Part shown: positions 575-24,026 of the stretch, piece after piece
Position numbering within the stretch: position 1 is the stretch's first letter
Layout: every line of letters starts with the position of its first letter
Assembly (NCBI GenBank): GCA_029210915.1
Contig: JARGGJ010000017.1
Span: forward strand, 1-32,970
Reading direction: 5' to 3'
Length of the DNA: 32,970 nucleotides
DNA from: Patescibacteria group bacterium
Lineage (GTDB): Bacteria > Patescibacteriota > Patescibacteriia > 2-12-FULL-60-25
Notes under the pieces: generated by a model
Database searches by the model: none
Seen by the model: the letters and a program-made list of their open reading frames with translations, nothing else
Told to the model about the DNA's origin: nothing
Made by a program: the position numbers and the translations under genes

Positions 575-814
575 ATGCATTTCGTTTACATCCTTCAAAG
601 CGAGCAATACAAATTTTACTATCATGGTTCAACATCGGATATAAACCGACGACTTCAGCAACACCATCGTGGTGAATGCGTTACAACCTCACGTGGCGGT
701 CCGTGGAAACTTATTTGGTATGCAGGCTTTTCATCAAAGAAGCTTGCCGAAGATTTCGAACGATATCTTAAGTCAGGGTCTGGATTCGCGTTTAGTAGGA
801 AAAGATTGATTTAA
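575..814 (+). CDS. GIY-YIG domain protein (UPF0213-like, single-domain nuclease)
   Basis: A 79-residue protein consisting only of a GIY-YIG fold. It begins with FVYILQS (the 'GIY' strand, here VYI), followed by FYYHGSTSDINRRLQQH (the 'YIG' strand, here YHG, with the Arg on the following helix), and ends with the usual LKSGSG region. Standalone proteins of this type are common in bacteria; a nuclease role is inferred from the fold and the cellular target is unknown. The YIG isoleucine is replaced by His, which is unusual. No Shine-Dalgarno site precedes the ATG. A strong terminator follows at once, so it is probably monocistronic. Confidence 0.85.
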   Translation: MHFVYILQSEQYKFYYHGSTSDINRRLQQHHRGECVTTSRGGPWKLIWYAGFSSKKLAEDFERYLKSGSGFAFSRKRLI

Positions 815-8019: not shown

Positions 8020-8030
8020 AATTATATTTA

Positions 8031-8114
8031 ATTAATAAATAACAAATAATAAATAACAAAGCGAGCGGATCTTATTTAAATAACAAATTATGAATAATAA
8101 ATAACAAAGCGAGT
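8031..8114 (-). repeat. Two inverted copies of the CCGCTCGC-TTATT repeat
   Basis: Copy one is 8031-8070 (AATAAATAACAAAGCGAGCGG) and copy two 8078-8114 (ending AAGCGAGTAG). Both are in the opposite orientation to the copies at 8571-8619 and 8711-8753, so together they frame the four-helix-bundle gene at 8156-8539. Confidence 0.7.
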
Positions 8115-8155: not shown

Positions 8156-8539
8156 TTATTTGTTATTTGTGATTTGTAATTTATTTGAGTCATTAGTTTT
8201 ACATGTTTTTAACGTTTTTGTAAGTATCTTAACAATTTCAACACAATCTTCTCTTAATAATTCAGCTTCTTCCAAAGATAACAGTTCCGAATCTCTTATC
8301 AACCTTATCCAATAATCAGTTTCTCTGGTCTCTTTCAAGGCAATGTGAACTTTATGTATAAAATCCGCTCTTGATTGCGCACCGGCAGCCTCTTCCAAAT
8401 TGGCACCGATCGAGGTTCCACTCCTTAACATCTGTTTCGACAATACAAACTCTCTTTTTTTATCAATTAAATAGTAATTAATCTTAACAACTTTCAAAGC
8501 AAAAGCATAGCTCTTCTCCACCGCAATATTTTCCTTCAT
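8156..8539 (-). CDS. Four-helix-bundle protein (S23/IVP-like), copy A
   Basis: A 127-aa protein of the 23S rRNA intervening-sequence (IVP)/TIGR02436 four-helix-bundle family. The hallmark is the second helix: LSKQMLRSGTSIGANLEEAAGAQSRADF, followed by HKVHIALKETRETDYWIRLI. Family members form small oligomers; relatives occur in 23S rRNA intervening sequences and as the Avd accessory protein of diversity-generating retroelements. The cellular role of standalone copies is not established. The C-terminal residues KLQITNNK come from the same AT-rich repeat that ends recQ. Inverted copies of that repeat stand on both sides of the gene. No Shine-Dalgarno site is evident. Confidence 0.88.
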   Translation of the reverse strand: MKENIAVEKSYAFALKVVKINYYLIDKKREFVLSKQMLRSGTSIGANLEEAAGAQSRADFIHKVHIALKETRETDYWIRLIRDSELLSLEEAELLREDCVEIVKILTKTLKTCKTNDSNKLQITNNK

Positions 8540-8710: not shown

Positions 8711-8753
8711 GATACCGCTCGCTTTATTATTTGTTATTTATTATTTGTAATTT
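8711..8753 (+). repeat. CCGCTCGC-TTATT repeat, further copy
   Basis: GATACCGCTCGCTTTATTAT then TTGTTATTTATTATTTGTAA. Nearly identical over about 40 bases to 8571-8619. Confidence 0.7.
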
Positions 8754-8811
8754 AATCATGTAATACCCGTGCCATAGCCAGTAATGTATGTCAAGAGGGT
8801 AAGTTGTGCAA

Positions 8812-14637: not shown

Positions 14638-14727
14638 AAACAGAACTTTATTAATTAATTAATAAATAATAAATAATAAAGCGAGCGGTATGATTTATTT
14701 TAATTATTTATTAATTAATAATTTATT

Positions 14728-14830
14728 AAAAACCTCAGATATTATCCGAGGTTTTTAATTTCAATTTTTTATTTATTTTTATCCTTAGCATCGTCGAAGT
14801 GTTTCATACCTTCATTCCTTCATTTTTATA
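14728..14830. repeat. Direct repeat 1 with terminator-like hairpin, left of the NUDIX cassette
   Basis: A stretch starting AAAAACCTCAGATATTATCC and continuing through TTTTTAATTTCAATTTT, ATCCTTAGCAT and CATTCCTTCATTTTT is repeated at 16951-17050 with small differences. The hairpin at its head (CCTCAGATATTATCCGAGG) with A- and T-runs looks like a bidirectional terminator, but here it sits in a divergent promoter region where no gene ends, which suggests duplication or insertion. Confidence 0.7.
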
Positions 14831-17128: not shown

Positions 17129-18511
17129 CTAGTGATTACAATCCGGCCCATGCACATGCCCGCCGTGCTTTGCCGCATGTTCCGCTTCTTCTTTGGCAAA
17201 CTTTTCTAACCAAGTTTTGTATTCTTTGATACCTTTCTCTTTTAAAAACTCTAGAGTTTTACGATTACGCATCATTGCCTGCACATACTCGCGATATTCC
17301 GGGGAAGTAATGCGATCCTTAACTTCTTGATCCTGATCTTTAGCTTGCTCCAAAACTTTATCAATTTCCATATCCAACTCTTCATCGGAAACAGTAAGAT
17401 CATTCTCTTTAGCTATATGCTTAACATAAACAGCCGTCTTCACACGCTTCTCTGCCGTTGGCAACATATCAATCTTAAACTCATCGGCTGATTTCTTGAT
17501 GCTCGTGAGATAATCCTCCATCTTACCTCCGCGCTGTTCGATATCGTGTCTCATTTCCTCAAACATTCTGCGAGTTTCTTCTTTAAGCAAGATTTCCGGA
17601 ACTTCTGTAAACGAGCTCTTTTCTACCAAGGTTTCCAACAGTTCAATTTCCGCAACTTCGAGTGCTCTACGCTCATTTTCAGACTTCATGTTTTGGCGTA
17701 AAACATCTTTCAAAGCCTCTACGGTTTCAATTCCCAAGCTCTTAGTAAACTCATCATTTACCTCGGGTAATTGAATCTCGTAAACTTCTTTAACATCAAC
17801 TTCAAAATCAATATCCTTCCCTGCATACAACTTCTCAAAATGATCGGCCGGAAATGGAAGTGTAAAAGTTTTCTTATCGCCTTTGTTTACTCCCAGCAAT
17901 TGCTCCGCGAGTTTGGGAATATAATGATTCTCATTCAAATAAATTTTATAATCCTTTGCTTGCCCGCCCTCGAGCAATACGCCATCTTTCTTCATTTCCA
18001 TATCAACTAAAACCATTCCCTCTTTTTGAGACGGTTTAATGCTGGCTACTTCCTTACGGCGCATAGCGCGCAATTCCTCGATAGCCTTCTCAACCTCTTC
18101 ATCCTTTACATCCTTTACATCCATTTTTACAAAAGGCTCTGCAACCTCATGCGCTTTGCGGATAGTAGGCATGATAGCTACGGTGCAAGTAAATTTAACA
18201 TCCTGCCCGGGAGTTAATTGATCTACAGCAATCTCCGGCGAACCGATTGTTTCATAGCCTTTATCTAAAACGGTTTTAACAAACCACGTGCGAACAATAC
18301 GCTCTAAGGCCAATTGCCATAGTTGCATCTCTCCGCCAAGAACTTTAATAATTTCTTCTTTAGGAGCTTTACCCGGGCGAAATCCCGGTATAGTTTTTTC
18401 CTTACCAACCTCCTCAACAACCACATCGAGATAAGGCTTAACTTCTTCCGGCGTAACAGTGAATTTTAGTTCAACTTTTGAGCCGGGTAATTCATTTATT
18501 GTTGGTTCCAT
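17129..18511 (-). CDS. tig: Trigger factor (ribosome-associated chaperone)
   Basis: A 460-aa chaperone that binds nascent chains at the ribosome exit. The N-terminal domain has the ribosome-binding signature GFRPGKAP (43-50). An FKBP-type prolyl isomerase domain spans ~153-245 (EGMVLVDMEMKKDG ... KLAEQLLGVNKGDKKTFTLPFP). The C-terminal helical domain follows (VNDEFTKSLGIETVEALKDVLRQNM ... EKRVKTAVYVKHIAKENDLTV). The extreme C-terminus is His-rich (HAAKHGGHVHGPDCNH), a likely metal-binding tail seen in some trigger factors. The promoter at 18521-18548 places transcription start 2-3 bases before the ATG, so the mRNA is practically leaderless. Confidence 0.95.
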   Translation of the reverse strand: MEPTINELPGSKVELKFTVTPEEVKPYLDVVVEEVGKEKTIPGFRPGKAPKEEIIKVLGGEMQLWQLALERIVRTWFVKTVLDKGYETIGSPEIAVDQLTPGQDVKFTCTVAIMPTIRKAHEVAEPFVKMDVKDVKDEEVEKAIEELRAMRRKEVASIKPSQKEGMVLVDMEMKKDGVLLEGGQAKDYKIYLNENHYIPKLAEQLLGVNKGDKKTFTLPFPADHFEKLYAGKDIDFEVDVKEVYEIQLPEVNDEFTKSLGIETVEALKDVLRQNMKSENERRALEVAEIELLETLVEKSSFTEVPEILLKEETRRMFEEMRHDIEQRGGKMEDYLTSIKKSADEFKIDMLPTAEKRVKTAVYVKHIAKENDLTVSDEELDMEIDKVLEQAKDQDQEVKDRITSPEYREYVQAMMRNRKTLEFLKEKGIKEYKTWLEKFAKEEAEHAAKHGGHVHGPDCNH

Positions 18512-18561: not shown

Positions 18562-18628
18562 CAAATAGCAAATAACAAATAGCAAGAGTTTCTTATGTTT
18601 ACTCTTGCTATTTGCCATTTGCTATTTG
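18562..18628 (-). repeat. 28-bp perfect-in-RNA hairpin between M23 gene and tig
   Basis: Arms 18562-18589 and 18601-18628 are complementary over 28 positions; the only two differences are G-U pairs when read as minus-strand RNA. The loop is 11 nt. No T-run follows, so it may be an RNA processing or stability element at the 3' end of the LysM-M23 mRNA, or a weak terminator. The arm is itself a repeat of CAAATAGCAAATRRCAAATA units, like sequence near 4245. Confidence 0.75.
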
Positions 18629-20244: not shown

Positions 20245-20776
20245 GCAAAGAATCAAGCGCGCAATGATAAGTAATTTTAAGCTGTTACAGCCACAATCTG
20301 TGGCTCTTCGACAGTTTCTTTTTTAGATTCGTAATTTTTATTTTTTGGGTGCTCGATAGTATAAATGAGAGCAGATAACATCTTTTGGATGATAGTATTT
20401 GCTTCCACTAATTTCTCCGCCTCATCCTTAAACTCAGAAAACAAATCCGCGATTAGCAGTAAATAAGTTTCGCACTCAAACGAACTGTTTCTTGCATAAT
20501 TCAAGTGCTTAACAAAATCCGCCTTAGCCCATTTACGCTGACCCTGCGCAATCTGCACCGGCATCGAAAATGCACCTCGGGTTAACTGTGATGTAAGTGC
20601 ATACCTCTCCTCCTGAGGCAATTGCCTGGTTAATGCATGCACTCCCTTGGCAAAATCGTACGATTGCTGCCAAACCACTAAATCCCGAAAACTCATTTTC
20701 TTAAAATCTTTTTTAGATGATGTTGTACTTGTTGTAGACATATATATAATAATAATTTGCGCGCTTGATTCTTTGC
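20245..20776. repeat. 20-bp perfect inverted repeat framing four-helix gene B
   Basis: GCAAAGAATCAAGCGCGCAA at 20245-20264 is the exact reverse complement of TTGCGCGCTTGATTCTTTGC at 20757-20776. Both lie just outside the four-helix-bundle gene (20277-20741): 12 bp after its stop and 15 bp before its start. Right of it stands a small palindrome GCAACGCGATGCGTTGC (20777-20793), then the repeat of element C begins. Confidence 0.85.
20277..20741 (-). CDS. Four-helix-bundle protein (S23/IVP-like), copy B
   Basis: A 154-aa four-helix-bundle protein. Core: SFRDLVVWQQSYDFAKGVHAL (helix 1), ERYALTSQLTRGAFSMPVQIAQGQRKWAKADF (helix 2), HLNYARNSSFECETYLLLIADL (helix 3), ANTIIQKMLSALIYTI (helix 4). The FRDLxVWQ start and L-x-R-A-x-x-S-x-x-x-x-I-A-x-G pattern are family marks. 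I take the ATG at 20741 (MSTTSTTSSKKD); an upstream GTG would have to read through the inverted repeat arm. The C-terminal tail is longer than the family's. No neighbouring rRNA or retroelement is present. The role of the protein is unknown. Confidence 0.85.
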   Translation of the reverse strand: MSTTSTTSSKKDFKKMSFRDLVVWQQSYDFAKGVHALTRQLPQEERYALTSQLTRGAFSMPVQIAQGQRKWAKADFVKHLNYARNSSFECETYLLLIADLFSEFKDEAEKLVEANTIIQKMLSALIYTIEHPKNKNYESKKETVEEPQIVAVTA

Positions 20777-20794
20777 GCAACGCGATGCGTTGCA

Positions 20795-21293
20795 CGTTTA
20801 TAACGTTTATAACGTTTATAACGAGTTAAGGTGGTTTGAATGGTGATTTAATGTTAGTAATTATTTTTGAAATCATCTTAATTATATGGTCCGCATCATC
20901 ATATAAAATTTCATATAGTGATTCATTGATATAATTTAATCGCAAAGCTAACAATAACATCGATCTAACTTCACTACATGAGGCCTTTGCAATAAATAGA
21001 AACCTAACAAAATCTTTGTTCGATCCTCTCTCGAATCCCTCTGAGATATTATTCGGTACGGAGACAGCAGCTCTTTCAATTTGATCTTTAAATGAATAAT
21101 CTTTACAGAAATAAAACGTATTATAAATATTTACGACTAAATCCGTTGATTTTTGCCAAGCCCTTATATCCTCCACTCTATTAAACTTCATACATTTTAC
21201 TTTTTACACTACATTAACTCGTTATAAACAATCTAATTTCTCATTTATATCAACATCATTAACTCGTTATGAACGTTATGAACGTTATGAACG
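20795..21293. repeat. 35-bp inverted repeat of 9-bp units framing four-helix gene C
   Basis: Left arm 20795-20829 is three CGTTTATAA units plus CGAGTTAA. Right arm 21259-21293, read in reverse complement, is three CGTTCATAA units plus CGAGTTAA. The arms match at 32 of 35 positions and the three differences fall at the same place in each unit. A shorter copy, TTAACTCGTTATAAAC, is at 21214-21229. The stop codon of the gene (20826-20828) lies in the left arm. Confidence 0.88.
20826..21191 (-). CDS. Four-helix-bundle protein (S23/IVP-like), copy C
   Basis: A 121-aa four-helix-bundle protein. Core: VEDIRAWQKSTDLVVNIYNTF, FKDQIERAAVSVPNNISEGFERGSNKDF (the highly conserved second helix with RAAVSVPNNISEGFERGS), RFLFIAKASCSEVRSMLLLALRL. 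It fits the IVP/TIGR02436 family closely and is clearly related to copy D (shared F-x-x-F-L-F-I-x-K-x-S-C-x-E-V-R-S-M), less so to A and B. Function unknown. It lies inside a matched pair of inverted repeats. Confidence 0.9.
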   Translation of the reverse strand: MKFNRVEDIRAWQKSTDLVVNIYNTFYFCKDYSFKDQIERAAVSVPNNISEGFERGSNKDFVRFLFIAKASCSEVRSMLLLALRLNYINESLYEILYDDADHIIKMISKIITNIKSPFKPP

Positions 21294-21322
21294 ACACAAA
21301 CTCCAGGGTTACGATCATTCAG

Positions 21323-22846
21323 TTAGTATCCTTCGGAGGAGTCTTGTTGCCGATACTGAAGTGACTCCGCAACATGATTAGCTTCGATTGATTCGGATGA
21401 TGCTAAATCCGCGATTGTGATTGCCACGCGGAGTACGCGAAAGTACGATCTGGCGGAAAGGTGAAACTTATCCGTGGCCTGCCTCATCAACTTTTTCGCT
21501 TCATCACTTTGCTTAAAACTTTTTCGCACTTGCTCGCTGGATAACTCGGCATTTGTTGTCACTCCGGTTGTGCCTTGCCTGGAAACCTGCCTATCACGAG
21601 CCGCCTGCACACGAGCTCTGATAATTTTTGATGATTCTCCGGACGAAATCTGCATCAAATGTTCTGTCGGCACACGCGGTACAGACACTTTTAGATCGAT
21701 CCGATCCATCAGCGGCCCACTCACTCTCTTTGCGTAGCGGATAACCTGCTGAGGCGCGCACGAGCATGCCCGTTCCGGGTCGCCGAAATATCCGCACGGG
21801 CAAGGATTCATCGCCGCTATCAAAGTAAACCGCGCCGGGTAAGTTACAGTTCCCTGCGCTCGCGATACGGATACCATCCCATCCTCTAACGGCTGACGTA
21901 GATTCTCCAAAACCTGCCGAGAAAACTCGGGAAACTCATCCAAAAACAAAACTCCCCGATGCGCCAAAGAGATTTCTCCCGGTTTCGGAATAGTTCCGCC
22001 TCCCACAAGCGCCGCTCCGCTGGCCGTATGATGCGGAGTTCTAAACGGACGCAACTTACAAATTCCATCTCTCGGCAAAACTCCGGCAACCGAATGTATC
22101 CGCGTAACCTCCAGTGCTTCATCGCGAGTTAAGCGAGGCATAATCCCCGGGAAAGCTCTCGCGAGCATAGTCTTCCCCGATCCGGGCGGCCCGGTTAGCA
22201 AAACATTATGCCCGCCCGCCGCCGCGATCTCGAGCGCGCGCTTTGTTTGCTCTTGCCCGCGTACACTCGCAAAATCCAACGCCATCGCATCCTCGAGTAC
22301 ACCCTCAAACTCAATCGTTTCATGCGCTTCTATCAACTTCTCACCTCTAAGATGATCTACAACGTCTCTCAGAGTCTTAGCCGGGTATACTGTCACCCCA
22401 TGCACCAACGCAGCTTCTTTAGCATTCTCATCCGGTAAAATTATAGCCTTCGACTCATGCTCCACCGCATACATCGCCGATGACAAAGCACCATGAACAG
22501 GTCTAAGATCTCCATTCAAAGCAAGCTCGCCAACAAGTACCGGCCAATTATCTTTTGGCTCCAGCAAATCATTATTTCGCGACATTAAAGCTATCGCGAT
22601 CGGCAAATCATACCCCGACCCACCCTTCCGCAAATCCGCCGGTGCCAGATTAACCGTAACTCTTGGCCTCCCAATTGCATTTCCGATACTTTTAAGCGCA
22701 CTCCTCACCCTCTCCCTCGCCTCCTGCACCGCCGCATCAGGCAATCCAACAACATAAAAAGCCGGTTTCCCAAAACCCATGTCCGCCTCAACCCCAACAC
22801 CGAGTGCGTCGAGGCCTATTATTGCTGTGGTGGGGATGACTTTCAT
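21323..22846 (-). CDS. comM: ComM/YifB family Mg-chelatase-like AAA+ ATPase
   Basis: A 507-aa ComM family protein, a hexameric helicase that promotes branch migration when transformed DNA is integrated. The N-terminal ChlI domain (1-~165) includes ALGVGVEADMGFGKPAFYVVGLPDAAV and LRKGGSGYDLPIAIA. The AAA+ core has Walker A GPPGSGKT (219-226) and Walker B LFLDE (Asp303, Glu304), and four cysteines follow (NPCPCG...CSC; 349, 351, 361, 363), probably a zinc site. The C-terminal Mg_chelatase_C (ARSYFRVLRVAITIADL) is present. A role in DNA uptake fits the pilus genes in the window, but no other competence gene is seen. Confidence 0.94.
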   Translation of the reverse strand: MKVIPTTAIIGLDALGVGVEADMGFGKPAFYVVGLPDAAVQEARERVRSALKSIGNAIGRPRVTVNLAPADLRKGGSGYDLPIAIALMSRNNDLLEPKDNWPVLVGELALNGDLRPVHGALSSAMYAVEHESKAIILPDENAKEAALVHGVTVYPAKTLRDVVDHLRGEKLIEAHETIEFEGVLEDAMALDFASVRGQEQTKRALEIAAAGGHNVLLTGPPGSGKTMLARAFPGIMPRLTRDEALEVTRIHSVAGVLPRDGICKLRPFRTPHHTASGAALVGGGTIPKPGEISLAHRGVLFLDEFPEFSRQVLENLRQPLEDGMVSVSRAQGTVTYPARFTLIAAMNPCPCGYFGDPERACSCAPQQVIRYAKRVSGPLMDRIDLKVSVPRVPTEHLMQISSGESSKIIRARVQAARDRQVSRQGTTGVTTNAELSSEQVRKSFKQSDEAKKLMRQATDKFHLSARSYFRVLRVAITIADLASSESIEANHVAESLQYRQQDSSEGY

Positions 22847-22852
22847 ATATAT

Positions 22853-23244
22853 AGTTCATCAAGATAAAAGTTCATCAAGAGTTGCGAATGAATTTAATTA
22901 GTCCTGAAGTAATTTTTGATAATAGAATTGACTGATTATACACTTCGTCAAACTGCGCTTGGTTTATGAACCCTAAATCCATAGCAGCGTACATCATCGA
23001 TCTCACCTCACCGCAAGAGCCTTTTGAAATAAACAAAAATTGAGCAAACTCCTTATTACTTCTGCGCTCATAACCCTCTGCAATATTATTCATAGTAGAT
23101 AAAGTCGCCCTAAATAATTGACGTTTAAAATCAAAGTCTCTTAAATCACTAAAATATTTGAATATTAAACTCACTAATATTCGTGATTCTTGCCATGCTT
23201 TGATATCTTCAAATCTTTGAAACTGCATAACTCTTGATGAACTT
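22853..23244. repeat. Inverted repeat framing four-helix gene D
   Basis: AAGTTCATCAAGAGTT at 22868-22883 is the exact reverse complement of AACTCTTGATGAACTT at 23229-23244 (16 bp). A second, tandem copy of AGTTCATCAAGA lies at 22853-22864. The gene's stop codon (22875-22877) is within the left arm and its ATG abuts the right arm. Confidence 0.85.
22875..23228 (-). CDS. Four-helix-bundle protein (S23/IVP-like), copy D
   Basis: A 117-aa four-helix-bundle protein. Core: FEDIKAWQESRILVSLIFKYF, FKRQLFRATLSTMNNIAEGYERRSNKEF, QFLFISKGSCGEVRSMMYAAMDL. It is a close relative of copy C. It is located between comM (28 bp away) and lspA and may be read from the lspA side, but a minus-strand terminator at 23251-23273 stands between them. 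Function unknown. Confidence 0.9.
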   Translation of the reverse strand: MQFQRFEDIKAWQESRILVSLIFKYFSDLRDFDFKRQLFRATLSTMNNIAEGYERRSNKEFAQFLFISKGSCGEVRSMMYAAMDLGFINQAQFDEVYNQSILLSKITSGLIKFIRNS

Positions 23245-23250
23245 ATTACT

Positions 23251-23273
23251 AAAAAAGAAGCCTCCTTGGCTTC
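23251..23273 (-). terminator. Minus-strand terminator downstream of lspA
   Basis: On the minus strand GAAGCC-AAGGA-GGCTTC (23273-23257) is followed by TTTTTT (23256-23251). Confidence 0.85.
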
Positions 23274-23476
23274 GCCTTACACCCTATCTATAGGGTAGCA
23301 ATTATTTTGAAGATCGCAAGTCATCTGACAATCCACAAAGAAAATCACAAATTTTTTAATAATAACTATCTTGATCAATGTCAACAAATTTCAACAATCC
23401 ACACACTACTTTTCAAAATAACAGCCATCAGCTCTCGCCCGCCTTGGCGGTATCCAAAAAAACCCACCCCCCAAAT
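23274..23476. other. Gene-free spacer with a CCCTATC/TATAGGG dyad
   Basis: No gene is visible. There is a small dyad CCCTATCTATAGGG (23281-23294) and a C-rich patch (23465-23473). Confidence 0.4.
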
Positions 23477-23551
23477 AGTTCATCATGATTAAAGTAACAA
23501 GTTCATCAAGAGCTACTTAAGTTACTCTTGATGAACTTTAGTCTTGATGAA
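23477..23551. repeat. Cluster of GTTCATCAAGA repeats at the lspA 3' end
   Basis: Copies stand at 23478 (GTTCATCATGATT, diverged), 23499-23512 (AAGTTCATCAAGAG), 23525-23538 (inverted) and 23541-23552 (inverted). The 23499/23525 pair forms a 14-bp hairpin. The last codons of lspA (VHQD-stop) are encoded by the innermost copy. The same repeat frames four-helix gene D ~250 bp away. Confidence 0.8.
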
Positions 23552-24026
23552 CGTTAATCTTGTCATAATAATAATGCGAAGCAACATATCCAATGATCCC
23601 CAGTGTAATCGCAACATCCGCTATATTGATTATCGACGTATTAAATAAAAGTATCCAGTCAAACACATATCCATTCATTATCCTATCAATAAAATTTCCC
23701 AATGCTCCCCCGGACACGTATGAAAGAGCTAAAAATTCAAAAAATCTATTTTGCTTATACGAGGTTTTCATCCCATAAAACAAAACAATCAATGCCACAA
23801 TCGTCAGTCCTATTATAATTGGATACGGAATCGGCGCATTACCAATCAATCCATAATTTTCATGTTTGGTTATCGCCAATACTCCGGGAATAAAATCTAC
23901 TGTCGCTATCCAATCCAACCTTACCGCGTATTTCAAGACAAGATCTAAAATTATCGTATCAAAAACAGCCGCCGCAGCAAACAAAATCATCTTCTTCGGC
24001 GCGTAAGAACTTTCGTTGATATTCAT
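23538..24026 (-). CDS. lspA: Lipoprotein signal peptidase (signal peptidase II)
   Basis: A 162-aa polytopic membrane aspartyl protease that cuts lipoprotein signal peptides. Four transmembrane helices are visible (~12-30, 67-86, 95-111, 129-151). The family motifs are D-LVL-K (28-32), HENYGLIGN, SGGALGNFIDR (catalytic Asp114) and NIADVAI (catalytic Asp137). The N-terminus is somewhat divergent. The C-terminal codons overlap the GTTCATCAAGA repeat. It ends the local minus-strand run; TraR/DksA lies 98 bp upstream with its own terminator. Confidence 0.92.
   Translation of the reverse strand: MNINESSYAPKKMILFAAAAVFDTIILDLVLKYAVRLDWIATVDFIPGVLAITKHENYGLIGNAPIPYPIIIGLTIVALIVLFYGMKTSYKQNRFFEFLALSYVSGGALGNFIDRIMNGYVFDWILLFNTSIINIADVAITLGIIGYVASHYYYDKINVHQD

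Follow-up and report, generated by a model that had tools for sequence, protein, structure and literature searches.

Intervening sequences (IVSs) of 23S rRNA genes, for example in Coxiella burnetii, can carry an S23 open reading frame (ORF) that is looped out by a stem of complementary flanking sequences; they have been called selfish and are patchily distributed (PMC4990558). A gene placed between two inverted copies of a genome-dispersed repeat is, by definition, the layout of the REP-RAYT systems, i.e. repetitive extragenic palindromes and their associated tyrosine transposases (PMC2817692). In this study we analyzed four S23 genes (copies A to D) carried by a 32,970-nt DNA stretch of a Patescibacteria group bacterium (assembly GCA_029210915.1, contig JARGGJ010000017.1, positions 1 to 32,970). 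This whole stretch, referred to below as the window, corresponds to contig C8 in a draft genome of 1.46 Mb (G000) with 15 S23-family genes (PF05635), 4 of them in the window. All four copies match PF05635 (E 4e-35 to 2.5e-25) and TIGR02436 ("23S_rRNA_IVP"), and PF05635 is the only Pfam or NCBIfam domain detected in the window elements. The genes indeed lie outside rRNA, as stated in an initial annotation of the window: no rRNA was found around copies A to D, and an Rfam scan of the window gave one tRNA only. Among their neighbors are lspA, yifB and a gene for an M23 peptidase.

Copies A, C and D probably represent widespread mobile elements of ~450 bp, in which an S23 gene is located between arms of iterated words; such elements would also spread in a gene-less form, with the S23 protein aiding their copying. 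The mobility of S23 elements is well supported by the filled and empty sites described below.

Inverted repeats framing S23 genes

The components of the four copies are as follows.

8028-8068: copy A, gene-downstream arm; word CAAATAA/TAAATAA; inverted repeat (IR) score 26 with 8715-8755
8156-8539, minus strand: copy A S23/IVP gene, 127 aa; PF05635, E 5.9e-27
8715-8755: copy A, gene-upstream arm; pairs with 8028-8068
20245-20264: copy B, gene-downstream arm; 20/20 complementary to 20757-20776
20277-20741, minus strand: copy B S23/IVP gene; PF05635, E 2.5e-25
20757-20776: copy B, gene-upstream arm; inner GCGCGCA core
20795-20829: copy C, gene-downstream arm; 9-nt word AACGTTTAT; 12-mers of the arm recur in the genome
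20826-21191, minus strand: copy C S23/IVP gene, 121 aa; PF05635, E 3.9e-35
21259-21293: copy C, gene-upstream arm; an additional partial copy at 21214-21233
22868-22883: copy D, gene-downstream arm; word AAGTTCATCAAGAG; 16/16 complementary to 23229-23244
22875-23228, minus strand: copy D S23/IVP four-helix-bundle gene, 117 aa; PF05635, E 6.2e-27
23229-23244: copy D, gene-upstream arm; pairs with 22868-22883

The arms of copy C can be extended to a 42-nt arm at 86%. For copy B, a GTG start at 20795 was replaced by the likely ATG at 20741. The initial annotation had located the arms of copies B, C and D correctly, and its view that copy A is also framed by inverted repeats was borne out. It had placed the genes exactly between the arms; they do lie between them, but the arms of copies C and D overlap the last codons of the gene.

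The same annotation had proposed comparing the flanks of S23 genes with those of other genes. In 578 kb of G000, the flank-IR cutoff was reached by 13 of the 15 PF05635 genes and by 27 of 557 other ORFs (Fisher p 1e-14), i.e. such repeats are far commoner at S23 genes. Genus-wide, the cutoff was exceeded at 37 of 40 S23 genes. The analysis was extended to 143 loci of Patescibacteria, Bacteroidota and other phyla, where framing IRs were found at 120 S23 loci (84%), compared to 1.5% of control windows with matching geometry from these loci; shuffled flanks reached the cutoff in ~0.6%. These two controls were used in place of a mismatched-flank null, which was set aside as inflated, since arm families are common to several loci. 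Framing IRs were also present at all 12 plasmid S23 loci, mostly cyanobacterial, with others in Riemerella and Azospirillum, although this count has no shuffle control. The outer span of the element has a median of 455 bp. The repeats around S23 genes are thus not a product of chance. S23 genes were present in 86 of 145 Patescibacteria genomes, and a search of a phage collection gave no S23 match.

The arms are composed of short iterated words. Their autocorrelation is highest at a lag of 7 nt, where identity is 0.53 vs 0.315 (z ~30), and harmonics appear at lags 14 and 21. Examples of the words are GAAATAC/GAAATTC, TAGTACC/TTGTACC and GTACATG/GTCCTGG, and at plasmid loci AGTCAGG/AGTCAGA and GGGAGTA, the cyanobacterial heptads having been read by eye; in the AAAGT family, periods of 7, 8 and 9 are mixed. 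The arm word tracks the similarity of the S23 proteins (Mantel r 0.57; permutation maximum 0.17), and word sharing climbs steeply above 60% amino-acid identity. The AAAGT word accompanies related S23 proteins in Patescibacteria, Bacteroidota, KSB1, Neomarinimicrobiota and a metagenome-assembled genome of Bacillota, and in the 5' arm, read along the coding strand, AAAGT predominates 54:1. The arm word therefore follows the protein clade, across phyla too. Each repeat is different, as had been noted, when the window is read copy by copy, but the words of copies A, C and D are found elsewhere in the genome. The conclusion that the repeats are private, and hence not the ends of one element, is not supported: the arm words are common to dispersed gene-less hairpins and to related S23 genes of other phyla.

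It could be argued that AT-rich intergenic DNA gave rise to the heptads by simple slippage and that they adjoin S23 genes by chance. Heptameric repeats are abundant in several bacteria, where polymerase slippage has been discussed (PMC4679880). However, we give this explanation almost no credence: the same-locus controls yielded only the 1.5% given above, S23-free relatives have no such repeats, and slippage would produce neither inverted arms on either side of a gene nor clean insertions. Sites filled in one genome and empty in another also contradict it.

Filled and empty sites and gene-less hairpins

Empty sites in relatives, also proposed as a check, were found both in sister genomes and in cyanobacterial plasmids. 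Synteny in the genus was read across DksA-LspA-YifB-M23-trigger factor. Copies C and D are both missing from their gaps in G001, G003, G006 and G008. In G002 the copy D ortholog is frameshifted and a GIY-YIG gene occupies the copy C gap, while in G005 other S23 genes are found in both gaps. Copy A was not counted as an empty-site case: RecQ orthologs in relatives have no adjoining S23 gene, but the synteny does not extend upstream.

Cyanobacterial plasmids whose flanks are 85-99% identical show gene and arms together as a clean insertion. An element present in Trichormus plasmid C and in Scytonema is missing in Nostoc linckia, whose flanks are 97.5-98.9% identical, and in Tolypothrix. One Nostoc plasmid operon has two gaps, filled in different plasmids, and the ribonucleotide reductase (RNR) operon of Nostoc edaphicum carries an element that is lacking in Calothrix NIES-4105 (85-86%). 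The same element family was found at unrelated sites. In Nostoc N6, one S23 gene, which two relatives have in intact form, is interrupted by a gene-less copy of 182 bp carrying the same word. In plasmids of Anabaena sp. 90 and Pseudanabaena galeata (loci L244 and L251), S23 elements were also observed within CRISPR operons, where they separate cas6 from cas4.

None of the empty gaps read (the YifB flanks of four sister genomes, Trichormus/N. linckia, both Nostoc operon gaps and the RNR operon) holds a heptad hairpin, and therefore the arms arrive with the gene. This bears on the possibility that S23 genes insert into the loop of pre-existing hairpins, the arms belonging to the target. Such a scheme would be in line with the 23S IVSs, which occupy helices formerly bearing a tetraloop (PMC4990558), and with the gene-less hairpins carrying the same words in the same genome. 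It is nevertheless highly improbable, as the arms follow the protein clade across phyla, and it was rejected on account of the hairpin-free gaps.

Three gene-less hairpins are located in the window.

14648-14732: hairpin of the AATAATAAATAATAAA type
18562-18628: CAAATAGCAAATAACAAATAGCAAGAGT heptad hairpin, located between the genes for M23 peptidase and trigger factor
23477-23562: hairpin with the same word as copy D, directly after lspA (IR pairs I4 and I9)

The gap of the last of these holds other sequence in G002. In G000 as a whole, 47 of 55 gene-less hairpins match the arms of resident S23 genes, compared to a mean of 12.9 and a maximum of 26 for random panels of the same number of foreign arms. 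Where a single best arm was assignable, hairpin and arm agreed in polarity 25:0. The number of gene-less hairpins per 100 kb was 9.2, 8.0, 5.5, 8.0 and 1.0 in five S23-bearing genomes and 0, 0, 0 and 2.0 in four S23-free genomes, where the 2.0 consists of weak AT-rich matches. This showed that hairpin density depends on S23 genes.

Copy B, RNA folds and the S23 protein

Copy B departs from this pattern. It adjoins yifB in all 7 genomes having yifB, out of 9 genomes of the genus, and its orthologs are 56-84% identical; it is vertically inherited, an old member of the family fixed beside yifB. The idea of a self-contained element moving independently of rRNA, put forward in the initial annotation, is thus upheld by the layout and the empty sites, but does not extend to copy B. 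The two S23-free genomes of the genus (G004 and G007) are also without YifB/ComM; since copy B is linked to yifB, both absences may reflect one loss. The arms of copy B are not heptads. Their inner GCGCGCA core is kept, while the outer parts change in step (5 orthologs with both arms aligned; G000 and G002 left out), which could be explained by selection on the stem or by gene conversion.

The arms may also be viewed as RNA stems under selection because they process or stabilize the S23 mRNA, i.e. as an operon insulator, with mobility rare and incidental. The matched arm changes of the vertical copy B speak for this explanation. Minimum free energy folding of copies B, C and D as RNA gave predicted stems closed by the arms (z of -4.6, -1.8 and -1.2, respectively), although a predicted fold beyond that of shuffled sequences is clear for B only. 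Outside the genus (103 loci), 84 S23 genes are co-directional with both neighbors and 2 are opposite to both; in G000, 14 of 15 are co-directional. This bias and the predicted stems likewise favor RNA stems. They would fit, without demonstrating it, an IVS-like role in RNA, possibly including the processing by RNase III invoked in the initial annotation, which excises 23S IVSs without ligation. However, gene-less hairpins spread as well, S23 copy number varies from 0 to 15 across the genus, and gene conversion between arms could also keep them matched. We consider it rather unlikely that the arms are kept as selected RNA stems with mobility merely incidental.

The S23 protein is under purifying selection (median pN/pS 0.25), with near-invariant residues Q37, R40, S44, N48, E51, G52 and E74 (copy C numbering). 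An AlphaFold2 model of copy C (pLDDT 96.5) gave 2GSC as the best PDB match (Z 19.6), followed by 2RLD (17.5). Against Avd and the ribonucleoprotein of diversity-generating retroelements (DGRs; 4DWL, 8UB7) the model scored Z 14.8 over 106 residues (rmsd 1.7), higher than unrelated helical bundles at 13.0. 2GSC has been described as a homopentameric ring (PMC4990558).

Each element consists of one S23/IVP gene between two inverted arms of ~25-40 nt, with words mostly of 7 nt. We propose that gene and arms insert as a unit, usually between co-directional genes of an operon, and that the arms also spread alone as gene-less hairpins resembling miniature inverted-repeat transposable elements (MITEs). 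In the best-supported picture, the arms act as mobile ends, and no factor other than the S23 protein is encoded. Its helical-bundle ring, presumably Avd-like, may recognize and protect the cognate arm word when this is folded as single-stranded DNA or as RNA, and may help host replication or repair enzymes to copy the folded element to other locations. Once transcribed, the paired arms might separate the S23 gene from the host message, in the manner of 23S rRNA IVSs. That a five-subunit ring reads the heptads is an idea, not a result.

We infer that the S23 protein drives mobility. The converse assumption is that S23 is a passenger: an arm-reading enzyme of the host or of another element mobilizes the hairpins, and S23 only regulates, protects or stabilizes them. 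The protein has no recognized catalytic motif, some words in G000 are orphans without a resident S23 gene, and a similar iterated-word layout surrounds the unrelated nuclease gene PF13366, all of which favor a passenger role. We nevertheless doubt it, given that the arm word co-varies with the S23 protein, that hairpins are absent where S23 is absent and that no candidate enzyme is common to all the genomes. A RAYT/Y1 transposase (PF01797) or a reverse transcriptase (PF00078) acting in trans was rejected, both being absent from G000; PF13366 as a general helper was rejected because G005, G006 and G008, each with 6-7 S23 genes, lack it.

Several observations weigh against S23-driven mobility of arms and gene. 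No nuclease motif was recognized in the S23 protein. There is no consistent target-site duplication: the Trichormus site alone has a possible one, of 4 bp (GTAA); at the other sites the duplication is ambiguous because the element ends are repeats. Clear IRs were lacking at 23 of the 143 S23 loci. The cyanobacterial copies L247 and L249 are antisense to both neighbors, and therefore a same-strand position is not obligatory. The orphan hairpin words of G000 include AAAGT and GTCTTAACG, and the S23-free genome G131 gives a few weak, AT-rich hairpin matches. The S23-free genomes compared are few and partly of higher GC, and the contrast in hairpin density calls for a larger survey. It should also be noted that the G000 assembly is a draft of 49 contigs.

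Other genes with framing repeats were observed. PF13366 genes, coding for PD-(D/E)XK nucleases, have their own iterated-word IRs (ACCTTGATT type, period 8-10) at 7 of 8 loci tested (L342, L343, L344, L345, L347, L348 and L349), and gene-less copies of this type occur in G000 at C11:48048-48177, C9:11543-11701, C22:10395-10509 and C2:35238-35380. These units possibly form a sister system with a real nuclease. Framing IRs were found at 11 of 26 GIY-YIG genes of the genus, but they are of a different, non-heptad type and were not regarded as the same phenomenon; long non-heptad palindromes such as GTCATCCTGAACTTGTTTCAGGATCTC flank GIY-YIG genes at L222, L229, L230, L232, L234 and L240. The GIY-YIG gene of the window (575-814), adjoining the tRNA, has no framing repeat. 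At L030:17053-17743, a PemK/MazF-like gene (17209-17667, minus strand) lies between inverted arms CTTGAGAATCTATGAATCTAAGC.

Two further loci were noted. Between lspA and yifB, window positions 23240-23340 hold a conserved block (TGTGGATTGT followed by a terminator-like stem) that recurs in genus relatives and is possibly a leader or regulatory RNA. Repeated GTTTCACGTGAAAC palindromes resembling parS sites were found at L037:4180-5531 (C2:24180-25531 of G000).

Comparison with known repeats and mobile elements

To our knowledge, the S23/IVP family has been without a function for decades. Heptameric repeats have long been used as strain-typing markers in cyanobacteria, whose short tandemly repeated repetitive (STRR) sequences are further repeats of this kind, and we know of no source for them. 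Published heptamers include Xanthomonas GGGAATC and Nostoc GGGGA(C/T)T, which are stated to have no general association with mobile elements (PMC4692102), TAACTGA of Beggiatoaceae (PMC4679880), and the STRRs applied in fingerprinting (PMC5088731). The S23 arms are similar to them in having 7-nt units that are intergenic and often in inverted pairs (70 in Xanthomonas campestris pv. campestris, Xcc). Moreover, the Xcc protein XCC0516, whose structure is 2GSC, is a member of the S23 family, and the cyanobacterial S23 genes analyzed here are framed by tandem 7-nt units. Plasmid searches with the XCC0516 sequence gave no Xanthomonas match. The published reports make no connection with S23; a link between heptamer repeats and S23 was not found in open-licence papers, and earlier reports elsewhere are possible.

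The link makes S23 genes and heptameric repeats testable parts of one mobile element. It may explain the seven-letter repeats dispersed in many bacterial genomes, predicts where repeats should be located, and provides a candidate case of movement that needs no classical transposase. Whether the elements constitute a novel class of prokaryotic transposable elements lacking any known transposase, in which a ring-forming protein of the S23/Avd fold reads heptad arrays and mobilizes gene and hairpins in many phyla, and whether the heptamers of cyanobacteria and Xanthomonas and the S23 genes of rRNA IVSs belong to the same system, is for us close to an even question, and we put this forward tentatively.

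Among the described systems, 23S rRNA IVSs share with the window elements the PF05635 protein and an ORF looped between complementary flanking arms (here a predicted stem). Unlike IVSs, the window elements are located between protein genes, have heptad arms and are accompanied by dispersed gene-less copies. DGR Avd has the same helical-bundle fold, and the likeness is one of fold only: sequence identity is 8-9%, there is no reverse transcriptase in G000 and no retroelement layout was seen. With MITEs and their parent insertion sequences the S23 elements have in common a coding element with inverted ends, non-coding derivatives inserted elsewhere and empty sites, but they have no recognizable transposase or consistent target duplication, and the word arrays of their ends differ between copies. 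As in REP-RAYT systems, an inverted dispersed repeat flanks the gene, repeat and protein co-vary, and repeat abundance tracks the gene. The differences are the S23 helical bundle in place of an HUH/Y1 tyrosine transposase, the many word families per genome, and heptad arrays instead of one short palindrome. We conclude that the S23 layout resembles the REP/RAYT organization, with a protein of the S23/Avd fold and no known transposase.

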